This document shows positions 9,681 to 42,742 of a stretch of DNA of 64,000 nt, piece by piece. The notes under the pieces were generated by a model, which searched no databases, was not told the origin of the DNA, and was given only the letters and a program-made list of their open reading frames with translations. Location: positions 1,040,501 to 1,104,500 of the forward strand of contig NC_010729.1 in the NCBI RefSeq assembly GCF_000010505.1, in the 5' to 3' direction. The stretch comes from Porphyromonas gingivalis ATCC 33277 (GTDB lineage Bacteria; Bacteroidota; Bacteroidia; Bacteroidales; Porphyromonadaceae). Position numbers and translations under genes: made by a program. Numbering within the stretch: position 1 is the stretch's first letter; each line of letters opens with the position of its first letter.

Positions 9681-9727
9681 TTGCATGGGATTTTCATTGA
9701 ACTCTTTTGCTGCAGAGCTGATTCTTA
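9681..9727 (+). mobile_element. MITE464-like fragment next to IS195 copy 1
   Basis: GAGACTGTTGCATGGGATTT through GCAGAGCTGATTCTTA matches one end of the element at 48846-49326 in inverse orientation. It is cut exactly at the left end of IS195 copy 1, so the insertion sequence landed in, or recombined into, a MITE464 copy. The rest of that MITE is not on the other side. Confidence 0.7.
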
Positions 9728-10797
9728 ACGTCAGTTCGATCTAAGCACAAATAGGAAAGTTTGGGTTTCTGATGATTTCAATATTGAGTTCAGGCTTTTT
9801 AGGCAGGATGTTGTAAGCGATGATACCGGAGATCAGGTTGGTGACAAAATTGTTGACACTGCGATGTCTCGTGTGCTCTATCTGACAGACATTTTTGAGC
9901 ATATCATTGACTGTTTCGATCAGGGCTCTCTTTCTCAATAAAACTTTGTCATATAGATGCATCAGGGAGTTCTTCATGTTCTTTTTGATTTTGGTTATCA
10001 TGTGGATGTCATCGACAAAGAGCCGGTCAAAAAGGTTTTGGGAAATGTAGCCTCTATCGGCAATGAGTTTGCCAAAAAGATTCTTGGTGAATGTTCCGTC
10101 TTTCAGAGGTTCTCTGTCATCACAATTGCCCGGTGTGATTTGATAGTTGATGATTTCACCCCTGTCGTTGATAACAATATGTAGCTTGAATCCATAAAAC
10201 CAACCCATGGTGCTTTTGCCTTTTTGAGCCCATCCCCTCATTGTCCTATGCCCATGAGCTCGTTTGATATGACAAGCCTTCAATGGGGTGGAATCGATGA
10301 AAGAGATGCCTGTACATTGACCCAAACAACACATATTGAGAAATGCTATCAGCTTGAAACCTACCCTGCTTTGCAGCTCCACAAAGCGATTATAAGAGAC
10401 AAGATGTGGGAACTCGGATCGACACGAGTGGGTGATGTATTGAAGATAAAAAGCTTTCAAATCTCGGTATCTTGACAGATGAAACAGGATCAGGATGGTC
10501 ATGACCTCACTGTCCGACATCTTAAACTTTCTATTCCTGCGTTTTTTGTCTTCCTCTTCGAGGGTCTTTTTCTTGATTGTTTCATCAAAAAGCTTGGAGA
10601 AATCATCTATGATGCAAAAAACATCAACTATATTTGTCTTCATAAAGTAGCGTTTTGTTTGTTCGTATCTTATTGATTATCAACTGCTAAGATACAAATA
10701 ATTCGCTACTTTTTCAAGCATAATGCCCACGTTCTTTGGGCGTTTACCACTAATCAGAAAACAAATCCATTGGCGTTTTCTTACGTCGAACTGACGT
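9728..10797 (-). mobile_element. IS195-type IS982 element, copy 1
   Basis: 1070 bp bounded by 11-bp terminal inverted repeats ACGTCAGTTCG and CGAACTGACGT. The same boundaries and length recur at 23526-24595 and 25506-26575. IS195 of P. gingivalis is about this length. Flanks are GATTCTTA on the left and TGTAAGCA on the right, so there is no target-site duplication. Confidence 0.9.
9741..10643 (-). CDS. IS982-family transposase, copy 1
   Basis: A 300-residue DDE transposase that cuts and pastes the IS195-type element. It is nearly identical to the copies at 23680 and 25519. Visible blocks include SFIDSTPLKACH (first catalytic Asp region), WFYGFKLH, PGNCDDREPL and LIADRGYIS (second Asp), with the Glu near RALIETVNDML. 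The frame is intact. The C-terminal residues read NFPICA here, against NFPISA in the other two copies. Confidence 0.92.
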   Translation of the reverse strand: MKTNIVDVFCIIDDFSKLFDETIKKKTLEEEDKKRRNRKFKMSDSEVMTILILFHLSRYRDLKAFYLQYITHSCRSEFPHLVSYNRFVELQSRVGFKLIAFLNMCCLGQCTGISFIDSTPLKACHIKRAHGHRTMRGWAQKGKSTMGWFYGFKLHIVINDRGEIINYQITPGNCDDREPLKDGTFTKNLFGKLIADRGYISQNLFDRLFVDDIHMITKIKKNMKNSLMHLYDKVLLRKRALIETVNDMLKNVCQIEHTRHRSVNNFVTNLISGIIAYNILPKKPELNIEIIRNPNFPICA

Positions 10798-10980
10798 TGT
10801 AAGCAGATTCCTCACGAATTTGGTTCCGGAATTGGCCGGAATGCGGTTCGAGTTTTCTGAGATTCACGAGCGAGAATTTTTCCGTTGTGGCGCGTAAAAT
10901 TTTTACTTCCCGAACCAAAACGAAAAAATTCCCGAGCCACGTTTTTCCAAACGCTAAACCGCCATTTTTACGAACTGACG
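10798..10980. other. Unassigned spacer with an IS195-type end
   Basis: About 180 bp with no gene I can support. A second CGAACTGACGT (10971-10981) matches an IS195-type terminal repeat and abuts the IS3-type left end, so this is probably another decayed element boundary. Confidence 0.4.
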
Positions 10981-11119
10981 TGTACGGAATCGGAGAGGTC
11001 AAAAAAAACAGTAATCATGTCGAAACATTTGACCGATTCCGAGCGTCTTCACATTGTGGAAGAATACCTCGGCAGCCCCGGAGCAAGTATGCCATCGAGA
11101 AGAAGTACAACATCGCCCA
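10981..11119 (+). pseudogene. IS3-type orfA fragment, forward
   Basis: The segment starts TGTACGGAATCGGAGAGGTC, a plausible IS3-family left end. An ATG at 11017 then reads MSKHLTDSERLHIVEEYL and so on, the N-terminus of an orfA helix-turn-helix protein (ISPg5-like by memory). A small deletion near residue 25 shifts the frame; the continuation YAIEKKYNIAQGLI is in another frame. The match stops at 11119, where an IS5-like end (GAGACCATTG) begins. The same left end occurs in reverse at 11601-11681. Confidence 0.7.
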
Positions 11120-11178
11120 GGGGCTTATTAGAGACCATTGTACGGCATTTTTGCGATATGACCATTGGTCTTTTCTTA
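11120..11178 (+). mobile_element. IS5-element end fragment
   Basis: GAGACCATTGTACGGCATTTTTGCGATAT resembles the left end of the IS5-type element at 34130. Only about 30 bp are recognisable before the MITE239 copy starts. Confidence 0.5.
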
Positions 11179-11417
11179 ACGTGAGTTCGATATAAAGAAA
11201 TGGCACAACACATTGGTTATTAGTGTGTTTTATTTTCCACACAGTGTTTTTCAGGCACTTATATTGCTTTCAGATGGCTTTTTATCTACATCTGAAACCC
11301 AATGACTTAGAAGCCGCCCCTTCTTCCCGATCATTATGCAGCCGGAGAATCACAAAAGAGTATGATTTACAGCTACTTGTTATTTTTATGGTATGTTCGC
11401 TTAGATCGAACTGGCGT
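11179..11417 (+). mobile_element. MITE239
   Basis: Exactly 239 bp between ACGTGAGTTCG (11179-11189) and CGAACTGGCGT (11407-11417), which are imperfect inverted repeats of the IS195 type. There is no coding capacity. The size and IS195-like ends match the miniature element known in P. gingivalis as MITE239, presumably mobilised by the IS982 transposase. It sits directly against a MITE464 fragment. Confidence 0.85.
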
Positions 11418-11596
11418 TATTTTATAGGACTTTCATTGAAGTCTTTTGCCGCAGAGCTGATTCTTAAGTGTTTTTCAGATTACTTGAGGTTTGCAGAGAG
11501 ACCGCATGAAGCTCTCCTTTCTTCGTCAAATCAATGCTTGTGTCTGTCTTGATCGATATGAGAGAGGGGGGAGGTTATTGTGCAACAGTCTCAAAA
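11418..11596 (-). mobile_element. MITE464-like half element
   Basis: TATTTTATAGGACTTTCATT through GTGCAACAGTCTCA is the reverse complement of the 48846-49060 half of the MITE464-like element. About 46 bp are missing after CAG near 11479, and it ends in the intact terminal repeat. Its other half has been replaced by the MITE239 copy. Confidence 0.75.
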
Positions 11597-11600
11597 TGTG

Positions 11601-11681
11601 AAGACGCTCGGAATCGGTCAAATGTTTCGACACGATTACTGATTTTTTGACCTTTCTGAGTATCAACTTTTTTCCCGTACA
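11601..11681 (-). mobile_element. IS3-type left-end fragment, inverted
   Basis: Read on the minus strand from 11681, TGTACGGG leads into GGTCAAAAAATCAGTAATCGTGTCGAAACATTTGACC and GAGCGTCTTC. It is the same left end as at 10981-11055 in opposite orientation. The MITE464 half is inserted in its orfA start. The two inverted copies bracket about 550 bp of nested debris. Confidence 0.7.
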
Positions 11682-11859
11682 CATCAGAAATGATTGGTGT
11701 ACAGATCGGTATGAACAGCCGTTTTGCCGATTTGTTGTTAGCTTTCAGCCGCTTTCATGCTCGATTTTACCTAAAAAACGGGATTGTGAACACTGTTCAG
11801 GCTTTGTTCCTTTGTCATGTACCAATAATGAGATCAAATTGACGAGGACAAAAAACGAG

Positions 11860-12459
11860 ATGGATGCTCGTGCCAGAATCTTGCGAGCTGCACGAGAGGA
11901 ATTTATGGTCAATGGTTTCCGAGATGCTTCTCTCCGAACCATCGCTCGCGAATCGGGAGTAGCCGTGAGCAATATATACAACTACTTCGAGCACAAGGAC
12001 AGCCTCTTCAGGGCTGTGCTTCAACCTCTCTTGGATGAATTCGGGCGGATAATGGAAGGTCACAACAGTGAGCACAATATGGACGTCTATATGCTCATGC
12101 CTGAAAAGTTCCGCGAAGAGACGACAAAGGAGTTCATGCAGTTTGCCCGGCAGTTTCGGGCTGAGCTGAAGCTCCTGCTCTTGCAGTCCGGGGGCTCGTC
12201 GTTGGAGCACTTCAAGGATCAGGTCATCAGCAGACAAATACGATCCGGCGAAAACTATCTGCAGCTCTTCAAAGAAAAATACCCACATGCCAACACCGAG
12301 GTAAGCCCCTTCTTTATCCGATTGGGGGCCGCGTGGTGGGTCAATGTTTTCATCGAGATAATAACAAATGAGATTCATACCGAGGAGGAGATAAATCAAG
12401 GTCTGTCCGAATATATCGCTTTCGGTACGGCCGGCTGGCGAGCACTGATGCAGATATGA
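11860..12459 (+). CDS. TetR-family transcriptional regulator
   Basis: A 199-residue TetR-type repressor from the ATG at 11860; a longer frame back to 11647 runs into IS debris and is not used. The N-terminal helix-turn-helix is textbook: ILRAAREEFMVNGF, then SLRTIARESGVAVSNIYNYFEHKDSLF at residues about 8-53. The C-terminal ligand domain is helical and unlike any specific subgroup I recognise. It is the first gene of a same-strand block with an RND/MMPL exporter 41 bp downstream, so it most likely controls that exporter and itself. The inducer is unknown. Confidence 0.9.
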   Translation: MDARARILRAAREEFMVNGFRDASLRTIARESGVAVSNIYNYFEHKDSLFRAVLQPLLDEFGRIMEGHNSEHNMDVYMLMPEKFREETTKEFMQFARQFRAELKLLLLQSGGSSLEHFKDQVISRQIRSGENYLQLFKEKYPHANTEVSPFFIRLGAAWWVNVFIEIITNEIHTEEEINQGLSEYIAFGTAGWRALMQI

Positions 12460-12499
12460 CTATAATACGGAATACAGAAAACACAAACGAGACAAAGCA

Positions 12500-14905
12500 A
12501 TGAAAATAGAACGCATTAACAGGTGGTTTCGCCATCGTGGCGAATGGATTATCCGCAAGCGTTGGATTGTATTGGGAGGTTTTTTCTTTTTTCTCCTTCT
12601 TGGATTCAATGGATTGCGTTTCCTTAGTATCAAAACCTCTTGGGAGGACTATTTTCTCGAGGACGATCCTATGATCATCAAGACGGAGGAGTTCAAATCC
12701 GTTTTCGGCAATGATAACTATGCTGCTGTATTGACCGACTGTGACAATACCTTCACGAAAGAAAATCTGGAGCTGATCCGTCGTCTTTCCAACGAGATGC
12801 TCGACAGTATTTCCTATGCCGAAAAGATTACTTCACTTACGGACATAGAGTTTATGATCGGAAATGAGGAGGGGATGGCCATCGAGCAGATCGTACCGGA
12901 AGAGATTCCTTCCGATTCAGCCGGATTGGCGGAGATCCGGCGCAAGGCTTTTCTCAAACCTTATATCGCCGATCGTCTGGTGTCCAAGGATGGTACCCTT
13001 ACATGGATACTCTTGAAGCTGAATCCCTTCCCGAGCGATTCTGTTTGGAACAAAGGGAAAGGTGCCGTTGCTCCTGAAATGGTGGTAGGACGCGAATTGG
13101 AAAACATCATCCGTAAGCCGGAGTATGCCGCACTGCATCCCAAAGGAGCCGGTATGCCCTATATGACGGATCGGAAGATAGCTTGGGTAAACAGAGAGTT
13201 ACCCATGGTGATGGGCATTGCCATTTTGTTGGCCATTATTGTGCTGGCAATATCAACCCGTTCTTTCCGCGGTGTGGTGGTACCCATCGTCACGGCATTG
13301 TCCTCTATCGTCATGGCATATGGCCTGACGGGATATTTTCGATTGGGTATCGACAGTGGTATGATGATGATACCGATGCTCTTGGCCTTTGCTGTAGCCG
13401 TGGCGTACAATATCCATATTCATTCCTACTTCCGACGGCAGATGATGATACACGGCAAGCGCAAACAGGCTGCGGTGGAGACCATTGAGGAGACCGGTTG
13501 GCCGGTGCTATTCAGTGCTCTCACCACTTTTGTTGCTTTGCTTTCTTTTCTGGCTATTCCCGTCGTACCGATGCACTTTATCGGTATCGCCACTTCTGCC
13601 AGTGTCCTCTTCTCCTTTATGATCGCCATTACGGTGATGCCGACTACCTTGAGTTTCGGCAAAGACCATCAGCCGAAAGCATCAGTGCGAAAAGAAGGAA
13701 AGCATCGGCTGGATCGATGGCTCGAAGCCTTCGGTGCCTGGGTGTTGGATCATGAGAAGTCCGTCTGGGGTGCTTTTATCCTTATGACAGTGGTGATGAT
13801 CTTTGGATTCTTGAAAATGGAGACGGCATTCGACATTGAAAGAACAATGGGGCGACGGATAGAATACGTCAGCAATATCCTTGCCGTGAGCGAAAGCGAA
13901 TTGGGTTCTCTTTATTCCTATGATATTATGATCGATTTGGGAGAGGAGGGAAAGGCCAAGACCCCCGAAGCACTTCGTGCTCTCGACAGCATCGCTCGCC
14001 ATGCAGAGGCATATTCCCTTACCAAGCGTACCACTTCGATATTGAATATCCTCAAGGATCTGAACCAGACCTTGCACGATGGGGATCAGGCATACTATAG
14101 CATTCCCGGCGATGCGGAGGAGGTGGCACAGCAGCTCCTCCTATATGAGAATGCAGGGGGGAGTGAGGCCGAAAGCTGGATAGACTACGAATACAGACGG
14201 CTGCGCCTGAAAGTGGAAATGACCTCTTACAATTCGGGTGAGGCCGAGTGGGAATTGCAGGATATTACCGATTATGCCCGTAAGCTTTTCCCCGAAGCAG
14301 AGATTACACCGGTGGGCAGTCTGCCACAGTTCACCACGATGATGCAGTATGTGGTGCGTGGACAGATTTCCTCTTTCCTCCTTTCTCTGCTTGTCATCGG
14401 ACTGCTGATGATGGTCGTTTTCGGTAGTGTTCGTGTAGGGCTGATAGGCCTTATCCCTAATATCATGCCTGCCATTGTAGTGGGAGGTCTGATGGGTATT
14501 CTGGACTATCCGCTCGATATGATGACTGCTACGATCATGCCTATGATATTGGGTTTGGCTGTGGATGATACCATTCACTTCTTCAATCATGGGCACTTGG
14601 AGTTCGACCGCCAGCGTAATTACCGTGGAGCCGTCCTCAAGTCGTTCCGGATCGTTGGGACACCTATCGTGCTCACGAGTCTGATCGTCTCGGCCAACTT
14701 TGCTGCTTACACCATTTCCAAGGGGCACTCTTTCGTACACATGGGTATTCTCTCGGTTGCAGGGATGTTCACAGCCCTTTTGGCAGACCTCTGCATCACG
14801 CCACTCCTGTTCCGACGATTCCGAATATTCGGGAAAGAAGATTTTGCCGTATCGGTTTCAAAAAAGACGGCAGACCAATCTCTCCCGAACACGGTTACCG
14901 ATTAG
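12500..14905 (+). CDS. MMPL/RND-superfamily exporter
   Basis: An 801-residue transporter with the two-fold RND layout. TM1 (WIVLGGFFFFLLLGFNGL) lies near residue 15, followed by a large periplasmic loop and then a five-helix bundle (about 230-390). The second half repeats this with a helix near 420, a loop and helices from about 625. The motif GLAVDDTIHFFNHG in the second bundle is the expected acidic relay segment. Its size and the absence of a membrane-fusion partner point to the hydrophobe/MMPL branch, which exports lipids or hopanoid-like molecules, rather than the AcrB branch. It lies downstream of the TetR gene and 77 bp before a LolA-like gene. Confidence 0.88.
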   Translation: MKIERINRWFRHRGEWIIRKRWIVLGGFFFFLLLGFNGLRFLSIKTSWEDYFLEDDPMIIKTEEFKSVFGNDNYAAVLTDCDNTFTKENLELIRRLSNEMLDSISYAEKITSLTDIEFMIGNEEGMAIEQIVPEEIPSDSAGLAEIRRKAFLKPYIADRLVSKDGTLTWILLKLNPFPSDSVWNKGKGAVAPEMVVGRELENIIRKPEYAALHPKGAGMPYMTDRKIAWVNRELPMVMGIAILLAIIVLAISTRSFRGVVVPIVTALSSIVMAYGLTGYFRLGIDSGMMMIPMLLAFAVAVAYNIHIHSYFRRQMMIHGKRKQAAVETIEETGWPVLFSALTTFVALLSFLAIPVVPMHFIGIATSASVLFSFMIAITVMPTTLSFGKDHQPKASVRKEGKHRLDRWLEAFGAWVLDHEKSVWGAFILMTVVMIFGFLKMETAFDIERTMGRRIEYVSNILAVSESELGSLYSYDIMIDLGEEGKAKTPEALRALDSIARHAEAYSLTKRTTSILNILKDLNQTLHDGDQAYYSIPGDAEEVAQQLLLYENAGGSEAESWIDYEYRRLRLKVEMTSYNSGEAEWELQDITDYARKLFPEAEITPVGSLPQFTTMMQYVVRGQISSFLLSLLVIGLLMMVVFGSVRVGLIGLIPNIMPAIVVGGLMGILDYPLDMMTATIMPMILGLAVDDTIHFFNHGHLEFDRQRNYRGAVLKSFRIVGTPIVLTSLIVSANFAAYTISKGHSFVHMGILSVAGMFTALLADLCITPLLFRRFRIFGKEDFAVSVSKKTADQSLPNTVTD

Positions 14906-14967
14906 GCATATGCCTGTACATTTTTGCCTTCCTGAAAGATGGGGAAGACTAAATATAGAACAGCTAA

Positions 14968-15774
<807 letters not shown>

Positions 15775-15777
15775 ACT

Positions 15778-17055
15778 ATGGAAGTGAAGAAAAACACAGT
15801 GGTGCTACGCCTTCTGATTTGGTTCGTGGCCATTCTTCTCTTCCACTCCTCACGGCTGTGGGGACAGGAAGGGGAGGGGAGTGCCCGATACGGATTCAAA
15901 GGATTCGTGGATACCTACCATGCCGTGCGCAGCTCTTCTCCTTTTGATTTCATGAGCTCGCGTACGAGAGTGAGAGGTGAGCTGGAGAGGTCGTTCGGTA
16001 ATTCGAAAGTAGCCGTATCGGTCAATGCCACCTACAATGCTCTACTGAAAGACGAGACCGGCTTACGTTTACGTGAAGCCTTCTTCGAGCATCAGGAAGA
16101 GCATTGGGGGTTGCGCCTCGGACGACAGATTGTCATTTGGGGGGCTGCCGACGGTGTGCGCATCACGGATCTGATCTCCCCGATGGATATGACCGAGTTT
16201 CTGGCACAGGATTACGATGATATTCGTATGCCGGTCAATGCATTGCGTTTCTCTGTCTTCAACGAATCGATGAAAGTGGAAGTCGTGGTACTGCCTGTAT
16301 TCGAGGGGTACCGTCTGCCTGTGGATCCTCGCAATCCTTGGAATATCTTCTCCCTTTCCCCCATTGCTCAGGGGATGAATATCGTCTGGAAAGAAGAAGC
16401 CGGCAAACCGGCCTTCAAGGTTGCCAATATCGAGTACGGTGCGCGATGGAGCACTACGCTCTCCGGTATCGACTTCGCTTTGGCTGCATTGCATACATGG
16501 AACAAGATGCCCGTCATCGAAGTACAGGGCATTGCGCCGACGGAAATCATCGTTAGCCCTCGCTATTATCGTATGGGATTTGTCGGCGGCGACCTCTCCG
16601 TACCCGTCGGACAGTTTGTTTTCAGGGGAGAGGCTGCATTCAATATCGACAAACACTTCACCTATAAGAGTCATGCCAAGCAAGAGGGTTTCCAAACAAT
16701 TAATTGGTTGGTTGGAGCCGATTGGTATGCTCCCGGTGAATGGATGATCTCAGGACAATTCTCAATGGAAAGCATATTCAGGTATAGGGATTTCATCTCC
16801 CAAAGACAACATTCTACCCTGATTACTCTCAATGTTTCCAAGAAATTCTTCGGCAGTACACTCCAGCTTTCGGACTTCACCTACTACGACCTTACGGGCA
16901 AAGGATGGTTCAGTCGCTTTGCAGCTGACTATGCCCTGAACGATCAGATACATCTGATGGCCGGATATGACTGGTTCAGTAGTAAGGGCAGCGGTATATT
17001 CGATCGCTACAAAGACAATTCCGAACTCTGGTTCAAAGCCCGCTACAGCTTTTAA
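15778..17055 (+). CDS. Outer-membrane beta-barrel protein of the MMPL block
   Basis: A 425-residue protein with a signal peptide (LLIWFVAILLFHSSRLWGQ) and alternating amphipathic strands to the end. It finishes with SELWFKARYSF, a typical outer-membrane C-terminus with terminal Phe. The motif RLGRQIVIWGAADGVRITDLISP is characteristic of DUF1302-like barrels found next to MMPL/LolA-like pairs. Together the exporter, carrier and barrel could form a route from inner membrane to surface. It begins 3 bp after the LolA-like stop and the ABC genes follow 24 bp later. DUF1302 membership is inferred, not proven. Confidence 0.78.
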   Translation: MEVKKNTVVLRLLIWFVAILLFHSSRLWGQEGEGSARYGFKGFVDTYHAVRSSSPFDFMSSRTRVRGELERSFGNSKVAVSVNATYNALLKDETGLRLREAFFEHQEEHWGLRLGRQIVIWGAADGVRITDLISPMDMTEFLAQDYDDIRMPVNALRFSVFNESMKVEVVVLPVFEGYRLPVDPRNPWNIFSLSPIAQGMNIVWKEEAGKPAFKVANIEYGARWSTTLSGIDFALAALHTWNKMPVIEVQGIAPTEIIVSPRYYRMGFVGGDLSVPVGQFVFRGEAAFNIDKHFTYKSHAKQEGFQTINWLVGADWYAPGEWMISGQFSMESIFRYRDFISQRQHSTLITLNVSKKFFGSTLQLSDFTYYDLTGKGWFSRFAADYALNDQIHLMAGYDWFSSKGSGIFDRYKDNSELWFKARYSF

Positions 17056-17079
17056 TAACAACAGAAACAACCAATACAA

Positions 17080-18834
17080 ATGAACGACACAATCAACAAA
17101 ATCAAAGCCTATATGGGCAATCGAGCCATTCTCTTGCCCGTTTCATTAGTGCTTTCGGGTCTCAACGGGCTTGTCTCCTTAGTCCCGTTCGTCTTGATAT
17201 GGCTGATCGTGCGTACGCTCCTTGGAGGAGAGGGTGCTATCGAGGATAATCGGGTATTTGTGTATGCCTGGTGGGCAGTCGGCATAGCCGCATTCGGTGT
17301 CCTGACTTATTTCCTCTCCCTTTCCCTTTCACATCTTGCTGCTTTCAGGGTAGAGGTCAATATGCGTCGGGAAGCTATGCACCGCGTAGTGCGTATGCCA
17401 TTGGGTTACTTCGACAAACGCCTGAGCGGAAAGATGCGCAAAGTCATCGATGAGGACTCATCGCAGACGCACACTTTCATAGCCCATATCTTGCCCGATG
17501 TTATAGGCAGTATGATGGCTCCGGTCGGGGTGCTGGTGCTTATCTTCATATTCGATTGGCGGTTGGGTATTGCCTGCCTGCTCCCGATTGCTTTTGCTGT
17601 GGGAGCCATGTCTTTTATGTTGAACCCGAAGCAAAATAAGTTCCAACGCCGGTATCTCGATGCACAGGAGAAGATGAGCAGTGAGGCCGTAGAGTATGTG
17701 CGTGGCATACCGGTAGTGAAAGTCTTCCAGCAGAGCGTTTATTCCTTCAAACGTTTCTACCAAAGTATTATCGAGTATAAGAAATTGGTGACGGAATATA
17801 CTTTGGGTTGGCAGAAGCCAATGGCTTTCTATGTCATGTTTACCAATAGTTTTGCTTTTTTCCTCGTGCCTGTAGCTATTTGGCTTATAGGCCGAACAGG
17901 CAATACGGTCGATATTATAGCCGATATGTTTCTGTATCTGCTGATTACACCCGTTTTTACGACCAATATCATGAAGATGGCCTCCCTTAGTCAGAACCTC
18001 TTTTTACTTAATGAAGCAGTAACCAGACTGGAGAATCTGACCGGAGAGGAGCCACTTGCCACACTTGAAAGACCGCAGACTCCCGTCACGAATGAAGTCT
18101 CCTTCGATCATGTTACCTTTCGCTATACCGGTGCAGTACAGGATGCCGTCAGTGATATTGACTTCTCCATCCCTCCAGGGCAAACCTATGCGCTGGTCGG
18201 AACTTCCGGAGGGGGTAAGACCACTATAGCCCGACTCATACCTCGCTTTTGGGACGCTACCCAAGGCCATATACGTATCGGTGGAGTAGATGTAAGGGAT
18301 ATGGCAAAAGAAGAGCTGATGGACAGGATTTCTTTCGTCTTTCAGAATGCCAAACTCTTCAGAACCACCATTCGTGAGAATATTACCTATGGCAGTCCGG
18401 ATGCATCCGAGGATGCTTTGGCTCGTGCCATCGACCTTTCTCAAAGCCGTGAAATTATAGAGCGTTTGCCCGATGGACTGCAAACGAAGATAGGAGCCGA
18501 TGGCACGTATCTCTCCGGAGGGGAGCAGCAGCGCATAGCTTTGGCTCGTGCCATACTCAAGGATGCTCCTATTGTGGTGCTCGATGAAGCCACAGCCTTT
18601 GCTGATCCCGAAAACGAGAAATTGATACAGCAGGCTTTGCACGAACTGACGAAAGGAAAGACGGTGCTGATGATTGCTCATCGACTGACGAGCGTACAGC
18701 ATGTGGATCGTATCCTTGTGATAGAGAAGGGACGAATCGCAGAACAGGGTACCCACGAAGAACTCTTGACACAAGGTGGTCTTTACAAATCCATGTGGGA
18801 GGAATACCAGCGATCCGTTTCTTGGACATTATGA
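17080..18834 (+). CDS. MDR-type half ABC transporter, first of pair
   Basis: A 584-residue fused permease-ATPase. Six membrane helices occupy about residues 15-310. The nucleotide domain has Walker A GTSGGGKTT (374-382), Q-loop VFQNAKLF, signature LSGGEQQ (478-484), Walker B IVVLDEAT with D502 and E503, and the H-loop AHR. The pair resembles heterodimeric exporters such as the YbtP/YbtQ type. It follows the barrel gene closely and a second half transporter starts 46 bp after its stop, so a heterodimer is likely. Substrate unknown; membership in the TetR block is inferred from spacing. Confidence 0.88.
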   Translation: MNDTINKIKAYMGNRAILLPVSLVLSGLNGLVSLVPFVLIWLIVRTLLGGEGAIEDNRVFVYAWWAVGIAAFGVLTYFLSLSLSHLAAFRVEVNMRREAMHRVVRMPLGYFDKRLSGKMRKVIDEDSSQTHTFIAHILPDVIGSMMAPVGVLVLIFIFDWRLGIACLLPIAFAVGAMSFMLNPKQNKFQRRYLDAQEKMSSEAVEYVRGIPVVKVFQQSVYSFKRFYQSIIEYKKLVTEYTLGWQKPMAFYVMFTNSFAFFLVPVAIWLIGRTGNTVDIIADMFLYLLITPVFTTNIMKMASLSQNLFLLNEAVTRLENLTGEEPLATLERPQTPVTNEVSFDHVTFRYTGAVQDAVSDIDFSIPPGQTYALVGTSGGGKTTIARLIPRFWDATQGHIRIGGVDVRDMAKEELMDRISFVFQNAKLFRTTIRENITYGSPDASEDALARAIDLSQSREIIERLPDGLQTKIGADGTYLSGGEQQRIALARAILKDAPIVVLDEATAFADPENEKLIQQALHELTKGKTVLMIAHRLTSVQHVDRILVIEKGRIAEQGTHEELLTQGGLYKSMWEEYQRSVSWTL

Positions 18835-18880
18835 AAGAAGAAATACACACAATTACCTCTAATTGAAACGAAACAAACCT

Positions 18881-20587
18881 ATGATACGATATTTCCAACA
18901 CCGATTCGCTCTCTCTCGTAAGGGTGCGCAGGATCTTGCCAAAGGCATTGCATGGACTACGGTTTTGAATGTCGGATTTATGTTGCCTGCCATATTCACT
19001 TTTCTTTTCCTCGAAGACTATCTGCAAGGATCCGCCACACATGGTATTTGGTATTATATAGCCATGGGAGCGGCTTTTATGGCGGTGCTCTTCGTTATAG
19101 CTCTCTTCCAATACACAAGTCTGTACACCAAGATATATACAGAGAGTGCCAACCGCCGCATCGCCTTGGCTGAAAAACTACGTAAACTCCCATTGGCTTT
19201 CTTCGGAGAGAAGAATCTGTCCGATCTGACTTCCACGATGATGGAGGATAGTACGGTGATGGAGACTGTCTTCTCTCACAGTATACCCCAGCTCTTTGCA
19301 TCGTTGGTCAGTCTCTTTTTGATCGGTATAGGGCTCTTCTGCTATAATTGGCAGCTTTCGTTGGCACTCTTTTGGGTTGTGCCTGTAGCAGCCTTAGCAA
19401 TTGTCTTTTCCAAAAAGATGTTGAACAAATCATTCCGCTCGAACTACCATGTCAAACGAGAGGTCACCGAGCATATACAGGAAGGAATCGAAGAGATACA
19501 GGAGATAAAATCATATAATGGCGAAGAAGAATTTGCCGAGCGCTTCGATGCCAAACTCCATGCCTATGAGAAGAGCCTTATTCGATGTGAACTTGTTGTC
19601 GGTGCCGTCCTTAATGCTTCATATATAATCCTCAAACTGGGACTTGCCTCTGTAATCATAATAGGAGCTTATCTCTTGTCAGAAGGAACAATCGATCTAT
19701 TCACTTATTTGGTCTTTCTGCTTATCGGATCGAGCATATATAATCCCATAAGTGAAGTATTCAGCAATTTGCTACTCTTGCAGTACCTCGATGTACGTAT
19801 CGATCGGGTGAGAGAGATGGATGCTATGCCGATACAGGAAGGTAAAACGGACTATTCTGTCCGGAACTTCGATATTATATTCCAAAACGTAAATTTCTCC
19901 TACGAAAAGGGGAAGCAAGTACTGCGCAATGTATCGTTCACGGCCAAACAAGGGGAAGTCACAGCCCTCGTCGGTCCGTCGGGTGGAGGAAAGAGCACAT
20001 CGGCCAAGTTGGCTGCACGCTTTTGGGATATAGATGGAGGAAAGATCTTTTTGGGAGGGGAAGACATTTCGCAAATCGAACCCGAAACCCTGCTACGTCA
20101 TTATGCCATCGTCTTCCAAGATGTACTGCTCTTCAATGCATCGGTGGCCGATAATATCCGCATAGGTAAACCTGATGCTACAGATGAAGAGCTCAAACGT
20201 GTAGCTCGGTTGGCAAGATGCGACGAATTTGTAGATCGTCTGCCGAATGGATATGACACTTTGATCGGTGAAAATGGTGAGAACCTTTCAGGAGGTGAAC
20301 GTCAGCGCATTTCTATAGCCAGAGCTTTACTCAAGGATGCTCCGATTGTGCTGCTGGATGAAGCTACGGCAAGTCTCGATGTTGAGAATGAGACACTGAT
20401 ACAGGCTGGTATATCCGAACTGATCAAAAACAAGACAGTCCTCATTATCGCTCATCGTATGCGCACTGTAGCCAATGCCCATAAGATTGTTGTACTCAAA
20501 GAAGGGACTGTAGCCGAATGTGGCAGTCCGGCCGAATTGATGGCCATGAACGGTGTGTTTGCTCGAATGGTGGCGGCGCAGAAGTAA
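18881..20587 (+). CDS. MDR-type half ABC transporter, second of pair
   Basis: A 568-residue partner to the gene before. Six helices are followed by the ATPase domain: Walker A GPSGGGKST (about 365-373), Q-loop VFQDVLLF, signature LSGGERQ and Walker B IVLLDEATAS with the catalytic Glu present. The ATP site is therefore canonical in both subunits. ATG at 18881 is preferred over a TTG at 18863, which would add six charged residues ahead of the first domain. It is the last gene of the block; a long repeat-filled gap follows. Confidence 0.88.
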   Translation: MIRYFQHRFALSRKGAQDLAKGIAWTTVLNVGFMLPAIFTFLFLEDYLQGSATHGIWYYIAMGAAFMAVLFVIALFQYTSLYTKIYTESANRRIALAEKLRKLPLAFFGEKNLSDLTSTMMEDSTVMETVFSHSIPQLFASLVSLFLIGIGLFCYNWQLSLALFWVVPVAALAIVFSKKMLNKSFRSNYHVKREVTEHIQEGIEEIQEIKSYNGEEEFAERFDAKLHAYEKSLIRCELVVGAVLNASYIILKLGLASVIIIGAYLLSEGTIDLFTYLVFLLIGSSIYNPISEVFSNLLLLQYLDVRIDRVREMDAMPIQEGKTDYSVRNFDIIFQNVNFSYEKGKQVLRNVSFTAKQGEVTALVGPSGGGKSTSAKLAARFWDIDGGKIFLGGEDISQIEPETLLRHYAIVFQDVLLFNASVADNIRIGKPDATDEELKRVARLARCDEFVDRLPNGYDTLIGENGENLSGGERQRISIARALLKDAPIVLLDEATASLDVENETLIQAGISELIKNKTVLIIAHRMRTVANAHKIVVLKEGTVAECGSPAELMAMNGVFARMVAAQK

Positions 20588-20591
20588 GGAA

Positions 20592-20714
20592 ACGTGAGTT
20601 CGATGTAAGCGATATGGTGCCGACTCTCATAAGATCCGCCATATCGATCAAACACTTGTTGGGATATTGACTATAACCGAATTGGAAAATGAAAGGGAAA
20701 AAGTTTGCCGTCAT
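20592..20714 (+). repeat. Dispersed repeat A, copy 2
   Basis: It is closely similar to 3162-3285, opening ACGTGAGTTCGATGTAAGCGAT and closing GAAAGGGAAAAAGTTTG. It begins 5 bp after the stop of the second ABC gene. The shared MITE239-type end suggests a decayed miniature element. Confidence 0.7.
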
Positions 20715-20839
20715 AAACCTAACGATTGCTACGTTCGGTTATCAAACAAGTACGAATTAATGGGGCCTTTGCACAATAAGCAGGCACTTTTGTTCATTCA
20801 TTTTATTGTGTGTCAGGCGACTATTTGGTACACGCCGGA

Positions 20840-20921
20840 TTTCCACAAGTGGAAAGCTGTCTTTCCACGGGTGGAAAATAAACTTTCCATTAGTGGAAAT
20901 TTCTTTTTCCACCGGTGGAAA
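20840..20921. repeat. Four 16-bp palindromes at exact 22-bp spacing
   Basis: TTTCCACnnGTGGAAA-type palindromes start at 20840, 20862, 20884 and 20906, so the period is exactly 22 bp. The third is TTTCCATTAGTGGAAA, with one mismatch between arms. The central two bases vary (AA, GG, TA, CG) and the 6-bp linkers differ. This is in the 800-bp gap between the ABC gene and the protease gene. Confidence 0.85.
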
Positions 20922-20936
20922 TTTACTCCCCTTTAA

Positions 20937-21170
20937 TGAGTGCCCCTTTGAGACATCAAACGACATGACCGGCAACAGCACTTGTGCTCCTCCAATCATC
21001 GCCTTGCTCCCCGTGTATGTACCTTGTGTGCCACGCTGTGCCGTCTGATTTACATTGCGTCCATACGAGCCGATACCACCTCCGGCTCCAATAACCCATC
21101 CGGCTACCATCGGTACACAGTAGCAGAATACCAATTAGGAGAAACTCGCTCGAATGAAGCTGCAAAACCA
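20937..21170 (-). pseudogene. Unrecognised gene fragment
   Basis: The minus strand reads a Gly-rich peptide without stops (VAGWVIGAGGGIGSYG, then GGAQVLLPVMSFDVSKG). The composition is protein-like and it may be part of a larger membrane or conjugation protein, but I do not recognise it and there is no convincing start or end. It is reported only as a possible remnant. Confidence 0.3.
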
Positions 21171-21201
21171 ATTTAATGCGTCGGCCCCGGGGGCAGCCTG
21201 T

Positions 21202-21343
21202 CAGGGCGATCGCGTTTGAAAATTTTTAGTCTCTTTCCTCTATGATTTGAATCTCTGACATATGGATTCGCACTTGTTTGATAACCGAGCGTAGCAATCA
21301 TGAGCTTTAGATGTACGTTAGTGGCTGAAATGCGATTGCCCTG
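21202..21343. mobile_element. 142-bp ISAs1-type MITE, copy 2
   Basis: It is bounded by CAGGGCGATCGCGTTTGAAA and TGAAATGCGATTGCCCTG, imperfect inverted repeats shared with the element at 5591-5726. The interior is partly alike (TAGTCTCTTTCCTCTA, GATTTGAATCTCT) and non-coding. It ends 40 bp before the protease start. Confidence 0.6.
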
Positions 21344-21383
21344 ATCAAAAATAGTACTACGAAAGTTTTGTACCTTAGCGCGC

Positions 21384-23093
21384 ATGAAAAAGACCAATCT
21401 GTTTTTATCTCTGCTGGTGATCTTTATCACCGGCAGTTTTATGACTGCCTGTGCACAGAAGTCCAAGACGAACAAACTCACCGAAGAAGATCGGAGTCGC
21501 AATGAATATGTACAGTCGATGGATGTGCTTAGCAATATTATCGGTAACGTCAGGCTGTATTTCGTCGATACCATAAGTATCAAACATATGACTCGGCGTG
21601 GTATAGATGCGATGTTGGGCGGGCTTGACCCCTATACCGAATACATTCCTTACGAGGAAATGGATGAACTGAAATTGATGACTACGGGAGAGTATGCCGG
21701 AGTCGGAGCTATCATATCGCAGCGTCCGGATAGTGCTGTGATTATCCAGAGACCTATGGAAGGTATGCCCGCAGACGAAGCAGGATTGATAGCAGGCGAC
21801 CGCATCCTGACTATCGATGGGAAAGACTTCCGTAAATCCACCACACCGAAAGTAAGCCAAGCACTGAAAGGGATAGCCGGTACTGTTGCAAAGGTGACAG
21901 TAATGCGCTACGGCGAAACCAAACCTCGTACTTTTTCCGTGAAACGTCAAAAAGTGATTATGAATTCCGTCACTTACAGCGGAATGCTCGATGGCTCGAT
22001 AGGATATATCCGCTTGAACAACTTTACGGACAAAAGTGCAGAAGAGGTGCGCACGGCCTTGTTGGATCTTCGTGACAAACAAGGAGCGAAAGGTCTCATT
22101 TTGGATTTAAGAGGCAATGGTGGCGGACTGATGCAGGCTGCTATCGAGATAGTCAATCTGTTCGTCCCTAAGGGCAAAGAGGTGGTAACGACCAAAGGTC
22201 GCATTGCAGAGTCGGCATCCGTATTCCGCACATTGACTGAACCGATCGACACGAAACTCCCGATAGTAGTCCTGATCGATGGACAATCGGCATCTTCCTC
22301 GGAGATTGTAGCCGGAGCACTGCAGGATATGGACAGGGCTGTACTGATGGGACAAAAGAGCTATGGCAAAGGGCTTGTACAAACGACTCGTCAGCTACCA
22401 TACAACGGTGTGATCAAATTGACTACGGCCAAGTACTACATCCCAAGCGGACGTTGTATCCAGCGTTTGGACTACAGCCGCACCAATCGGACAGGTATGG
22501 CAACGGCCATTCCTGACAGTCTGCACAAAATCTTTTACACTGCTGCCGGAAGACGTGTAGAAGATGCAGGAGGAATCCTGCCTGACATCGAGATCAAACA
22601 AGATACAGCTGCGACATTACTTTATTATATGGCCATCAATAATGACGTTTTCGATTTCGTCACAGGTTATGTGCTCAAGCATAAAACGATTGCCAAGCCG
22701 GAGGATTTTTCCATAACGAACGAGGACTATGCAGCTTTCTGCAAGATGATGGAAGAAAAGAAATTTGACTATGATCGCCAGAGTGGCAAGATGCTTGACA
22801 AACTGGAGGAACTGGCTAAGATAGAAGGCTACTTGCCGGAAGCCAACTCGGAGCTTAAAGCACTACGCGAAAAGCTAAAACCCAACCTGTCGCGTGACCT
22901 GCTACGATTCAAAAAGGAGATAACAAACCATCTCAACAATGAGATTGTCACTCGCTATTATTATGAGCGAGGCAGTATCCGCCAGAGTTTGCCGGAAGAT
23001 AAGGTAGTCAAAGAAGCTATTAAGCTGCTGAAGGACCATCCGGAGCAAATTCGACAGATCCTTGCAGCTCCGAAAGCAGAGAATAAAGGGTAA
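21384..23093 (+). CDS. C-terminal processing protease, S41 family
   Basis: A 569-residue tail-specific protease. The N-terminus is a lipoprotein-type signal, with the lipobox in SFMTAC and the lipidated Cys at about residue 23. A PDZ domain follows at about 95-175 (GVGAIISQRP, EAGLIAGDRILTIDG). The S41 catalytic core is SASSSE (302-307) with Lys 325 and 329 in GQKSYGKG and the substrate-cleft motif DLRGNGGG. The protein is probably anchored in a membrane and acts in the periplasm, trimming proteins at their C-termini. A near-consensus promoter TACCTTAG sits just 6 bp before the ATG, implying a very short leader. A terminator follows. Confidence 0.92.
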   Translation: MKKTNLFLSLLVIFITGSFMTACAQKSKTNKLTEEDRSRNEYVQSMDVLSNIIGNVRLYFVDTISIKHMTRRGIDAMLGGLDPYTEYIPYEEMDELKLMTTGEYAGVGAIISQRPDSAVIIQRPMEGMPADEAGLIAGDRILTIDGKDFRKSTTPKVSQALKGIAGTVAKVTVMRYGETKPRTFSVKRQKVIMNSVTYSGMLDGSIGYIRLNNFTDKSAEEVRTALLDLRDKQGAKGLILDLRGNGGGLMQAAIEIVNLFVPKGKEVVTTKGRIAESASVFRTLTEPIDTKLPIVVLIDGQSASSSEIVAGALQDMDRAVLMGQKSYGKGLVQTTRQLPYNGVIKLTTAKYYIPSGRCIQRLDYSRTNRTGMATAIPDSLHKIFYTAAGRRVEDAGGILPDIEIKQDTAATLLYYMAINNDVFDFVTGYVLKHKTIAKPEDFSITNEDYAAFCKMMEEKKFDYDRQSGKMLDKLEELAKIEGYLPEANSELKALREKLKPNLSRDLLRFKKEITNHLNNEIVTRYYYERGSIRQSLPEDKVVKEAIKLLKDHPEQIRQILAAPKAENKG

Positions 23094-23117
23094 GTCAAAA
23101 AAAAGTATTCCAGAATA

Positions 23118-23160
23118 GAACTCCGAACGTTTTGCACAAAACCGACGGAGTTCGTTCGTT
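23118..23160 (+). terminator. Terminator after the S41 protease
   Basis: GAACTCCG (23118-23125) pairs with CGGAGTTC (23146-23153), with extra TTTT/AAAA pairing inside the loop. The tail is GTTCGTTT, weakly T-rich. Confidence 0.55.
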
Positions 23161-23525
23161 TGTAATTGTCCAGCTCCCCTTTCAAGCTTTCCTGAAAAAT
23201 GAGTTCTATCCCCTTTTCTCCAATGCGATGGCCAATTTGTAGAGTGGGTGCAATTGGTTCAGCATATCTGATAGACTGCTGAATAATGAAGGGGTATGAT
23301 GGGGCTTTTTAATCATGAAAATCTGCAAGTTTCTTGCTATAAAGATAAGAAAACTTGCAGATTTATCAAAGGTTTTCGCAAACTAATCAGGGCAACCGCA
23401 TCAAATCTTTAGCAACTTTTTGAGGTAGTCTATATTCAGAGCTGCTTTGAATAACCTCTTCCGTAAGGATAGTTTGTCTTTATGCCCGGATACAATGGCT
23501 AAAGCAAACTTTCTCAACGTGTTTA

Positions 23526-24595
23526 ACGTCAGTTCGACGTAAGAAAAAGCCAATGAATTTGTTTTCTGATTAGGGTTAAACGCCCAAAGAACGTGGGCAT
23601 TATGCTTGAAAAAGTAGCGAATTATTTGTATCTTAGCTGTTGACAATCAATAAGATACGAACAAACAAAACGCTACTTTATGAAGACAAATATAGTTGAT
23701 GTTTTTTGCATCATAGATGATTTCTCCAAGCTTTTTGATGAAGCAATCAAGAAAAAGACCCTCGAAGAGGAAGACAAAAAACGCAGGAATAGAAAGTTTA
23801 AGATGTCGGACAGTGAGGTCATGACCATCCTGATCCTGTTTCATCTGTCAAGATACCGAGATTTGAAAGCTTTTTATCTTCAATACATCACCCATTCTTG
23901 TCGATCCGAGTTCCCACATCTTGTCTCTTATAATCGCTTTGTGGAGCTGCAAAGCAGGGTAGGTTTCAAGCTGATAGCATTTCTCAATATGTGTTGTTTG
24001 GGTCAATGTACAGGCATCTCTTTCATCGATTCCACCCCACTGAAGGCTTGTCATATCAAACGAGCTCATGGGCATAGGACAATGAGGGGATGGGCTCAAA
24101 AAGGCAAAAGCACCATGGGTTGGTTTTATGGATTCAAGCTACATATTGTTATCAACGACAGGGGTGAAATCATCAACTATCAAATCACACCGGGCAATTG
24201 TGATGACAGAGAACCTCTGAAAGACGGAACATTCACCAAGAATCTTTTTGGCAAACTCATTGCCGATAGAGGCTACATTTCCCAAAACCTTTTTGACCGG
24301 CTCTTTGTCGATGACATCCACATGATAACCAAAATCAAAAAGAACATGAAGAACTCCCTGATGCATCTATATGACAAAGTTTTATTGAGAAAGAGAGCCT
24401 TGATCGAAACGGTCAATGATATGCTCAAAAATGTCTGTCAGATAGAGCACACGAGACATCGCAGTGTCAACAATTTTGTCACCAACCTGATCTCCGGTAT
24501 CATCGCTTACAACATCCTGCCTAAAAAGCCTGAACTCAATATTGAAATCATCAGAAACCCTAACTTTCCTATTTCCGCTTAGATCGAACTGACGT
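23526..24595 (+). mobile_element. IS195-type IS982 element, copy 2
   Basis: 1070 bp with ends ACGTCAGTTCG and CGAACTGACGT. It is flanked by perfect 6-bp direct repeats TGTTTA (23520-23525 and 24596-24601), so this copy marks a clean transposition event. Confidence 0.93.
23680..24582 (+). CDS. IS982-family transposase, copy 2
   Basis: A 300-residue intact DDE transposase. Compared with copy 1 it has an Ala for Thr near residue 22 (LFDEAIKKK) and Ser for Cys near the end. Both Asp blocks (SFIDSTPLK, LIADRGYIS) are present. The element could be active. Confidence 0.92.
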   Translation: MKTNIVDVFCIIDDFSKLFDEAIKKKTLEEEDKKRRNRKFKMSDSEVMTILILFHLSRYRDLKAFYLQYITHSCRSEFPHLVSYNRFVELQSRVGFKLIAFLNMCCLGQCTGISFIDSTPLKACHIKRAHGHRTMRGWAQKGKSTMGWFYGFKLHIVINDRGEIINYQITPGNCDDREPLKDGTFTKNLFGKLIADRGYISQNLFDRLFVDDIHMITKIKKNMKNSLMHLYDKVLLRKRALIETVNDMLKNVCQIEHTRHRSVNNFVTNLISGIIAYNILPKKPELNIEIIRNPNFPISA

Positions 24596-25505
24596 TGTTT
24601 AGATTGATGGCTGAATAATCCTTACGAGCTCGACAAGTATCCTCCCTAAAGGTTACATCCAAATGCCAATGGAGTCGATTCTCAATTCCCCAATGCCCTC
24701 GAATATATTGCCCGATTAACTGACAATCTTCGGGTGGTAAACTGCTGATATAATACTGCCCTATCTATGCGAGTCTCTCCCTCTGAATTACTGATCTCAC
24801 GCTCCACTTGAATTAAACTTCTCAAGCCCTGCCATTGACTATATTCCCCCTCGTCAAAGACCTCTGAAGCCGGTAATGTGGTATAAGTCCGCTTCTCAAT
24901 ACGACCATGATCTTTCTCCAGGGTCTCATAACGATGACACCTGATATTGTCCTGTAAAGCAATCCCGAACATCCTCATACAAGTGTTTTTGATTGCCTTT
25001 GAGGCTTAGAATGTAGTCGGCTTCTGATTGGATGATCTGCTCGGCAATGTTGGTTTGAGTCCCCATAGCGTCTATGCTGATGACTGCTCCTGACAAATCA
25101 AGGCTATCCAAAACTTCCGGAATGGCTTGTAACTCATTGCGTTTCTCGGCAACACTCTCTTGAGCAAGGCTTAAACCTACTTCATCAACCCAAGCTGAGA
25201 GAATATGCGTACTGCCGGTTTTCTTCTTCGAGCCTTTCAGACGTTTGCCGTCAATGGCGATATGTTTACCTTCCAAGTCGCTAATCAGCTCTTTCCCATA
25301 AACTTGAAGACAAGCATAGAGAGACTGAGGCTCAATACGTTGGAGCACTCTTTCGAAAGTGTCTACGCTCGGACAACCATTCGGCAACTCAACCGGTGGG
25401 CGAAGAGATGCTCCTCGCTCTAAGCAAAGTTCATGCATGGACTCATAATCCTCGCCTCCACACAGATAACTCGCCAGTGCTATAACTAGAATATCGCTTA
25501 ACTTA

Positions 25506-26575
25506 ACGTCAGTTCGATCTAAGCGGAAATAGGAAAGTTAGGGTTTCTGATGATTTCAATATTGAGTTCAGGCTTTTTAGGCAGGATGTTGTAAGCGATG
25601 ATACCGGAGATCAGGTTGGTGACAAAATTGTTGACACTGCGATGTCTCGTGTGCTCTATCTGACAGACATTTTTGAGCATATCATTGACCGTTTCGATCA
25701 GGGCTCTCTTTCTCAATAAAACTTTGTCATATAGATGCATCAGGGAGTTCTTCATGTTCTTTTTGATTTTGGTTATCATGTGGATGTCATCGACAAAGAG
25801 CCGGTCAAAAAGGTTTTGGGAAATGTAGCCTCTATCGGCAATGAGTTTGCCAAAAAGATTCTTGGTGAATGTTCCGTCTTTCAGAGGTTCTCTGTCATCA
25901 CAATTGCCCGGTGTGATTTGATAGTTGATGATTTCACCCCTGTCGTTGATAACAATATGTAGCTTGAATCCATAAAACCAACCCATGGTGCTTTTGCCTT
26001 TTTGAGCCCATCCCCTCATTGTCCTATGCCCATGAGCTCGTTTGATATGACAAGCCTTCAGTGGGGTGGAATCGATGAAAGAGATGCCTGTACATTGACC
26101 CAAACAACACATATTGAGAAATGCTATCAGCTTGAAACCCACCCTGCTTTGCAGCTCCACAAAGCGATTATAAGAGACAAGATGTGGAAACTCGGATCGA
26201 CAAGAATGGGTGATGTATTGAAGATAAAAAGCTTTCAAATCTCGGTATCTTGACAGATGAAACAGGATCAGGATGGTCATGACCTCACTGTCCGACATCT
26301 TAAACTTTCTATTCCTGCGTTTTTTGTCTGCCTCTTCGAGGGTCCTTTTCTTGATTGCTTCATCAAAAAGCTTGGAGAAATCATCTATGATGCAAAAAAC
26401 ATCAACTATATTTGTCTTCATAAAGTAGCGTTTTGTTTGTTCGTATCTTATTGATTGTCAACAGCTAAGATACAAATAATTCGCTACTTTTTCAAGCATA
26501 ATGCCCACGTTCTTTGGGCGTTTACCACTAATCAGAAAACAAATTCATTGGCTTTTTCTTACGTCGAACTGACGT
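25506..26575 (-). mobile_element. IS195-type IS982 element, copy 3
   Basis: 1070 bp with the same 11-bp ends. The left flank (CTTAACTTA, inside an ISAs1 transposase) and right flank (ATCTTTCAG, inside a HEAT-like gene) share no target duplication. The flanks belong to two different interrupted genes whose missing halves are absent. Confidence 0.92.
25519..26421 (-). CDS. IS982-family transposase, copy 3
   Basis: A 300-residue intact transposase, with small substitutions near residues 25-31 (KKRTLEEADKK) relative to copies 1 and 2. The catalytic blocks are unchanged. Confidence 0.92.
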   Translation of the reverse strand: MKTNIVDVFCIIDDFSKLFDEAIKKRTLEEADKKRRNRKFKMSDSEVMTILILFHLSRYRDLKAFYLQYITHSCRSEFPHLVSYNRFVELQSRVGFKLIAFLNMCCLGQCTGISFIDSTPLKACHIKRAHGHRTMRGWAQKGKSTMGWFYGFKLHIVINDRGEIINYQITPGNCDDREPLKDGTFTKNLFGKLIADRGYISQNLFDRLFVDDIHMITKIKKNMKNSLMHLYDKVLLRKRALIETVNDMLKNVCQIEHTRHRSVNNFVTNLISGIIAYNILPKKPELNIEIIRNPNFPISA

Positions 26576-42255: not shown

Positions 42256-42734
42256 TTGTCTCTTGACGGGTGCAAAGATGTGTGTTTTATTTGATACCAC
42301 CAAATTTTGTCACCGTTTTTTTCTTTCGCAGATCCGGTATCGAGTACAACGTTGCGATAAATTTAGGATTGAGACGTCAAGAGGCGTTCTGAAGTTCCGG
42401 TTCCTTCCGGGTATATGATTCGGATCGGCTTCGGTTTGCTCGGTCTGTGCAGAGATAAGAGAGCCGGTTCCTGTATTGCAGAATAGGCACAATCCGATAT
42501 TAACTGACATTTCCTGCCTTTTGAGAAGAAAACTTCTGCCACGATCATGTTACGTTTTCACAAAAGTGGCGATGAAAGGTGACAAAATAGCATGCCGAAC
42601 AGCATTCGAATGACTTTTGGTCTAATCTCTGCCCCATCGGCTCGGTGGCACTGTATTTGTAGCCTCTTACAAGCAAGGATTTACAGCCCGTAAAAACGGA
42701 TTCGGACGATGCCCAAAGGAGTATTCCGGCGGAC
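42256..42734. other. Gene-free spacer
   Basis: No supported gene. The part at 42525-42600 shares AACTTCTGCC and TGGCGATGAAAGG with the IS1126-split small ORF region (37726-37770), so a decayed relative of that small ORF may lie here (reading VAMKGDKIAC). Confidence 0.35.
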
Positions 42735-42742
42735 CCTTCATA

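Follow-up and report, generated by a model that had tools for sequence, protein, structure and literature searches.

Our main finding is that the array of four phased palindromes described here, which lies in a 64,000-nucleotide stretch of the Porphyromonas gingivalis ATCC 33277 genome (the window), is most likely one copy of a palindromic satellite and not a local operator. We lean towards the view that arrays of this kind form a REP/BIME-like palindromic satellite, in which template switching matches the arms and flips the linkers, and which insertion sequences (ISs) have spread in P. gingivalis. In our ranking such a mutational satellite comes first, a set of binding sites for a protein second, and roles at the RNA level are weaker. 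The arrays provide a natural comparative record of a bacterial tandem palindrome in which arms are kept, adjacent spacers inverted and units lost, and they are a place to tell template-switch mutation from binding-site selection.

The array (20840..20921, no strand assigned) consists of four 16-bp palindromes joined by the 6-bp linkers gctgtc, ataaac and tttctt, with a period of 22 bp. Palindromes 1 (20840-20855, TTTCCACAAGTGGAAA), 2 (20862-20877, TTTCCACGGGTGGAAA) and 4 (20906-20921, TTTCCACCGGTGGAAA) follow the motif TTTCCAC-N2-GTGGAAA, and palindrome 3 (20884-20899, TTTCCATTAGTGGAAA) departs from it by one mismatch, one arm base being changed. The positions and the exact 22-bp period reported in the initial annotation are therefore borne out, with this single arm change in the third unit. 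Tandem Repeats Finder gives a period of 22, 3.9 copies, 70% matches and a score of 74. When up to three mismatches to the motif are allowed, nine matches are found in the window, four of them being the array, versus a mean of 3.06 in shuffled sequences, and none of 100 shuffles reaches nine. In the whole genome (2,354,886 bp), up to two mismatches yield 52 forward matches versus 6 for a reversed control pattern. The initial annotation had considered the case of a motif present only here; it is present at other loci, both in this genome and in the genus.

An ABC ORF ends at 20587, 252 bp before the array, and an S41 protease ORF starts at 21384, 462 bp after it, in agreement with the distances first given. 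This position is the point in favour of an operator array for the S41 protease, or of a terminal feature of the ABC gene, but the genome has 11 further sites of the palindrome-bearing element, including one within the duplicate of this locus. Moreover, a scan of 20580-21400, ill suited to Bacteroidetes promoters, returned no sigma-70-like promoter match. We find this reading scarcely credible. The link to either gene that had been proposed is unsupported, since the array sits inside a dispersed IS-ended element; what stands of the earlier interpretation is that the palindrome is kept rather than plainly copied in tandem, and what falls is the special tie to the neighbours. Judged from sequence, the position of the array is no evidence that it regulates the neighbouring protease, although it may still affect a neighbouring gene, and caution is due before such arrays are taken as operators of the next gene.

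The element copy that carries the array (20713..21343, no strand assigned) is IS-ended and MITE-like, and is homologous to two-ended copies of 627-671 bp elsewhere. Its right terminal inverted repeat, CAGGGCAATCGCATTT, is exact (21328..21343, minus strand). The outer left end is missing: the inner part of the left inverted repeat (20714..20757, plus strand; genome 1061214-1061257) has an 89% match, in inverted orientation, to 21266-21309, and the end itself is replaced by a different dispersed repeat that abuts the element (20591..20712, no strand assigned) and is also found at genome positions 123151, 131151, 375557 and 1043662. The element as a whole measures about 0.63-0.67 kb and ends in 16-bp terminal inverted repeats, CAGGGCAATCGCATTT and its reverse complement. 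Among the loci examined in the same genome, three copies, of 670, 671 and 627 bp, have both exact 16-bp ends and so present the short length and perfect terminal inverted repeats of a MITE. Near-direct repeats of 9-10 bp (9/10 and 8/9 identical) flank two of these three copies, and none flanks the third.

Next to the array, the decayed 3' end of a conjugative-transposon traJ, about 69 codons long (20928..21134, minus strand), continues into it. This remnant matches intact traJ genes in relatives, and one of those genes is recognised by NCBIfam TIGR03782 and Pfam CtnDOT_TraJ; the traJ matches seen in the same genome are element copies (20 of the 76 candidates scored). The element accounts for small ORFs that read through its palindromes, which in the window copy are 80-125 aa long. 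Farther along the window, a 643-bp segment (29505-30147) has ends that differ by 2 bases each from CAGGGCAATCGCATTT-type ends, and contains an ISAs1-like transposase remnant (genome 1070363-1070614; 29% identity, E 8.6e-6, one stop). Near other ISAs1-type genes, end-like words with 3-4 mismatches were noted, by location only, at L182-L184, and none at L180. An ISAs1-type transposase would have spread the composite element in P. gingivalis.

The closest published counterpart is BrickBuilt, which the accessible text of PMC4596501 describes as an IS-ended intergenic MITE of P. gingivalis with internal tandem repeats and 19 copies in ATCC 33277. Species, IS ends, intergenic location and internal tandem repeats are common to both. 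However, BrickBuilt has the 23-nt unit AGAYCATARTATCCTCTCRTRTG and ends near GAGACCTTCGCA, whereas the present element has a 22-bp palindrome, ends of type CAGGGCAATCGCATTT and a traJ fragment; identity with BrickBuilt was rejected, as the published 23-nt consensus is not matched by a unit that is 22 bp long and palindromic. The ends of BrickBuilt are nevertheless resembled by TGCAAAGGTCTC at copy G and by an inner GGGGCCTTTGCA of the window copy (20762..20773, plus strand), which is similar to the IS5-type ends GAG(A/C)CCTTTGCA printed for BrickBuilt copies in the same part of that paper; this likeness in sequence suggests that an older element may be nested within. MITE464/MITEPgRS, MITE239 and MITE700 are also MITE-like and from the same species, and MITE464/PgRS likewise has tandem repeats, but the ends printed for them in the accessible text (GAGACTGTTGCA; ACGTGAGTTCGA; ACGTCATTCGA) differ from those found here. 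The repeats of MITE464/PgRS are 41 nt long versus 22 bp here, and this candidate was dismissed, both the 41-nt repeats and the GAGACTGTTGCA ends being missing from the element copy checked by eye. This well-studied oral pathogen therefore carries a MITE-like element distinct from the four types in the accessible text of PMC4596501. That text also cites 22-nt tandem direct repeats in strain W83, whose exact locations are not given; these are possibly the present palindrome repeat, or an AT-rich 22-bp family described below. Apart from this remark, we found no description of the array or the element in the accessible parts of PMC4596501, PMC5771137 and PMC4755523 or in the literature searched, a scope that leaves out most subscription papers and the original MITE and genome papers.

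Twelve element-borne sites, A to L, carry 4, 4, 1, 3, 4, 3, 1, 4, 2, 4, 4 and 2 palindromes, respectively, C and G thus having one each, and further element fragments without palindromes are also present. The flanks of the array are common, on both sides, to copies in both orientations. Copies E (the window copy) and K are identical because a 16,858-bp segment (9718..26575, no strand assigned), which holds the whole element together with the ABC and S41 genes, has an inverted duplicate at 2129652-2146508 (99.99%); IS982-type elements of about 1.07 kb lie at both ends of this segment. Copies A and H are identical because they lie inside another duplication, of at least 6,965 bp. About ten element copies are therefore independent. 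The IMG/VR contig L108 carries a variant of copy A whose linkers are unchanged but two of whose palindromes differ. A thirteenth array, M (genome 971740-971777), has two palindromes with 2 mismatches each and different immediate flanks; an element fragment lies about 1.1 kb away, beyond an IS, and array M may be either a native array or a broken element copy. It lies downstream of the same DUF6078 gene as array L132 of the Porphyromonas genome G021, at 12 and about 300 bp, respectively (L008 4276-4777; L132 3009-3849). An IS982-type element stands at P. gingivalis arrays M and F (L008 4777-4801; L009 4566-4584), and an IS3-family element, the family having been tested in L126, at three array loci of G021 and another genome of the genus, G018 (L126, L134 and L136). 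These ISs are 18-24 bp from the array ends, and the arrays may be insertion targets.

The P. gingivalis copies also differ in their linkers, whose slots were aligned by the common flanks (copy F has two linkers, and its second was placed in slot 3). Slot 2 reads gtttat in copies A, B and J and ataaac in D and E, while slot 3 reads cttctt (A), attctt (J), aagaat (B), tttctt (E) and aagaag (D). Two 6-bp linkers therefore occur in both orientations, and in all four combinations, among copies A, J, B, E (identical to K) and D. Three of the 22 within-slot allele pairs are exact reverse complements, versus a mean of 0.135 under a null of shuffled linker letters (P(>=3) 8e-5); plain reversals and plain complements are both absent (0/22 each). 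Since all four orientation combinations exist, each inversion took in a single linker, its breakpoints falling within the adjacent palindromes, although the four combinations could also result from few inversions followed by recombination between copies.

Site-specific recombination is one way in which such a pattern could arise, each linker being flipped in turn so that the array becomes a register of independently invertible 22-bp segments. The four combinations agree with this, and the layout of inverted 5-bp arms around a 6-bp centre is similar to that of tyrosine-recombinase core sites. However, recombination of the tyrosine type normally needs matched cores, and neighbouring palindromes have different centres. 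Moreover, the element contains no recombinase gene, and ortholog alignments outside P. gingivalis, inspected by eye, revealed no clean linker inversion. We hold site-specific recombination to be very unlikely. A wider proposal, that genus-specific 22-bp dyad arrays (5-bp arm, 6-bp centre, 5-bp arm, 6-bp linker) are read by a trans factor, with independently invertible linkers forming a heritable orientation register that mobile elements carry to new genes, seems to us improbable, if somewhat less so.

The palindromic satellite that we favour accounts for these inversions by template switching. During replication, the inverted arms would form hairpins or pair across strands. A polymerase that switches template there would keep the arms matched and flip the linker, and slippage would add or drop whole units. 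According to the accessible text of two studies (PMC8604942; PMC8794818), when replication switches template between short inverted repeats, the arms become homogenised and the spacers inverted; this process therefore fits both the kept arms and the flipped linkers. The systems described there resemble ours in their matched arms and in spacers that are reverse-complemented in place, but they are single inverted repeats, whereas here the adjacent spacers of a tandem array were inverted separately. The yeast study among them, in its accessible part, saw spacer inversion only with arms of more than 9 bp (PMC8604942); the arms around the P. gingivalis linkers measure 7 bp. The lack, by eye, of clean linker inversions between orthologs outside P. 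gingivalis also speaks against the template-switch reading. Because template switching homogenises arms, and P. gingivalis linkers are inverted, the conservation of the arms may have arisen without selection for protein binding.

Related arrays exist in the genus. The looser motif TGGAAA-N6-TTTCCA-N4-TGGAAA is found in 8 of 26 genus genomes, a control pattern giving at most one match in each, and the exact pattern is missing from 18 of the 26. With a stricter, longer pattern, the P. gingivalis genome was the only one matched among 395 of the phylum, a sample in which no other Porphyromonas genome was seen. Two complete in-phase units were detected in 19 stretches of the genome_contigs collection, 17 of them titled Porphyromonas (P. 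levii, P. uenonis, P. crevioricanis, P. endodontalis and uncultured) and 2 being metagenome-assembled genomes (MAGs) of other groups, a Bacteroidales MAG (L101 2708) and a Verrucomicrobia MAG (L102 5910). Most genus arrays share one design, TTTCC, a 6-bp centre, GGAAA and a 6-bp linker (22 bp), so that the word TTTCC recurs, in alternating orientation, every 11 bp. A sister type has GTTCC/GGAAC arms; at L120 2775-2930 a GTTCC-N6-GGAAC array stands beside a TTTCC array, and this sister type may be commoner, since that segment matches many places in genomes G013, G019, G021 and G002 (about 75-95% identity). ORFs of at least 90 aa cross 11 of the relatives' 38 arrays and are absent from the other 27. 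In G021, between conjugative-transposon traJ and traK, a tandem dyad array of about 22 bp (L064 1860-2060), with arms AGTTTC/GAAACT and AGTGCC/GGCACT by eye, occupies the position at which the P. gingivalis element joins traJ to its array.

Rates of change were estimated in ten ortholog pairs, involving nine G018 loci set against G021, G013 or G019 (four genomes in all, L121 being used twice). Positions were classed from one member of each pair and differences counted to the other, with at most two arm mismatches per unit. Arms differ at 11/398 positions (2.8%), flanks at 314/4445 (7.1%), centres at 35/244 (14%) and linkers at 36/177 (20%); as within-repeat alignment can pair non-homologous units, the divergence of centres and linkers includes unit turnover and may be inflated. 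The initial annotation had also entertained the case of arms and linkers evolving equally fast, and the two differ clearly (p 1.7e-11). The order of rates is unchanged under six definitions (with the other member as reference, or with 0 or 4 mismatches), arms ranging from 1.4 to 2.9%, and with tolerant unit definitions arms are slower than flanks at p 2.6e-4 to 8.4e-4, positions not being independent. Of 11 aligned pairs, the 6 that align cleanly differ in length by whole multiples of 22 bp: five give 66, 22, 22, 22+22 and 66 bp, and the sixth, L113/L193, 22 bp. The remaining five (L114/L129, L121/L094, L119/L096, L128/L099 and L134/L139) do not align cleanly within the array; L134/L139 was excluded from the rate counts for poor alignment and the other four were kept, L126/L135 being outside the aligned set. 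At the G018 array locus L113, G002 has no array and G019 lacks one unit; in G021 and G013 the two flanks of L113 are separated from each other, as are those of L120. These two loci were chosen for their lack of a known G021 ortholog array, so the gene-order breakpoints there are not an unbiased finding.

Template switching alone lets arms drift in step, yet TTTCC/GGAAA recurs in several species, which indicates sequence recognition or common descent. Within the satellite reading, the common arm sequence would, though we are less sure of this step, come from descent from a shared ancestor, held by hairpin repair and possibly by an arm-recognising factor. A second feature is unexplained by the template-switch model: in the 174 centres from outside P. 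gingivalis, positions 2 and 5 are complements of each other in 0.14, below the 0.38 expected (units not being independent), whereas in P. gingivalis the figure is 0.85. The linkers of relatives' arrays, in G018, G021 and others, also avoid self-complementarity.

A real but minor possibility is that a dimeric DNA-binding protein specific to the genus, a regulator or nucleoid protein, binds the arrays cooperatively, and that in P. gingivalis they hitch-hike on the mobile element. The recurrence of one arm word in several Porphyromonas species, the slower change of arms than of flanks in orthologs, and the exact 22-bp phasing, which places TTTCC/GGAAA half-sites every 11 bp, about one helical turn, all agree with it. 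So do the symmetry of the P. gingivalis palindromes, which comes so close to the axis (within 2 bp) that a hairpin loop would not fit, and the presence of M and L132 by the same DUF6078 gene, as expected if selection keeps some sites. However, no candidate protein was found in the families searched (Y1_Tnp and DnaA), the arrays are not centred opposite dnaA (by inspection; G018 among the matches listed), copies C and G are down to one palindrome, and the exact pattern is absent from more than half of the genus genomes. Selection on binding accounts for the constant arm and the 11-bp spacing, but not for the inversions. Template switching and binding-site selection can act together.

A role in RNA, with the arrays forming hairpins at the ends of transcripts that serve termination or exonuclease protection in the manner of REP/BIME, is rather doubtful. 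The window array is predicted to fold strongly (RNA z -6.8, DNA z -7.6), but this score restates the palindromes; no terminator-like site was found in 20580-21400, and no RNA family matched at the array at Rfam gathering thresholds. For the 38 arrays outside P. gingivalis, simple ORF calls put convergent ORFs on either side of 17 and divergent ORFs on either side of 3-5, with no random control set. However, array polarity has no consistent relation to gene direction (by inspection), and the AT-rich 22-bp arrays of P. gingivalis are set oppositely, 1-4/29 being convergent and 7/29 divergent.

REP/BIME and REPIN sequences are short intergenic palindromes in tandem groups, with IS insertions close by, and the present arrays share this pattern, a short palindrome recurring in tandem groups at many intergenic sites. 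The satellite that we propose differs from them in its relation to Y1 transposase (RAYT) genes: PF01797 (Y1_Tnp) is found in 3 of 26 genus genomes (G012 and the array-bearing G021 and G013) and is absent from the P. gingivalis genome (G000) and from G018, the relative richest in arrays, and a RAYT/REPIN origin was rejected for the class as a whole on these grounds. MatP-like sites that organise the terminus were also discarded, as by inspection, with G018 among the matches listed, the arrays are not centred opposite dnaA, which lies at about 0.4-1.2 kb in G000, G018 and G021. In G021, array-pattern matches are, by inspection, missing from 0-0.84 Mb of 2.19 Mb and most lie at 1.0-1.84 Mb, dnaA being near 0. 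DnaA boxes were set aside because the base after TTTCCA varies outside P. gingivalis, and the half-sites presumably resemble those of parS/Noc, whose spacing differs (N6 here). In CRISPR arrays, nearly identical repeats alternate with unique spacers of about 30 bp, and this class was rejected because the linkers here are 6 bp and the palindrome centres vary.

P. gingivalis has a second family of 22-bp dyad arrays, in which a 16-bp palindrome, GATTTATATATAAATC, is followed by a 6-bp linker, for example (G/A)TTTTC. This AT-rich family has the same 16+6 design as the TTTCC arrays. It is present in the window at 29036-29138 and 54804-54907, mostly in 4-5 units, and genome-wide gives 46 forward and 29 reverse matches at about 31 loci (control 0), with flanks that repeat between loci. 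Common positions for these arrays and the relatives' TTTCC arrays were rejected: when their flanking proteins were compared, one query was matched, at 29-31% identity, and no common neighbourhood emerged. Finally, the window contains at 42733-42864 a 23-bp tandem array, ACCCTTCACACTTTATACTATAA, of about five to six units, which by eye is distinct from the BrickBuilt consensus.
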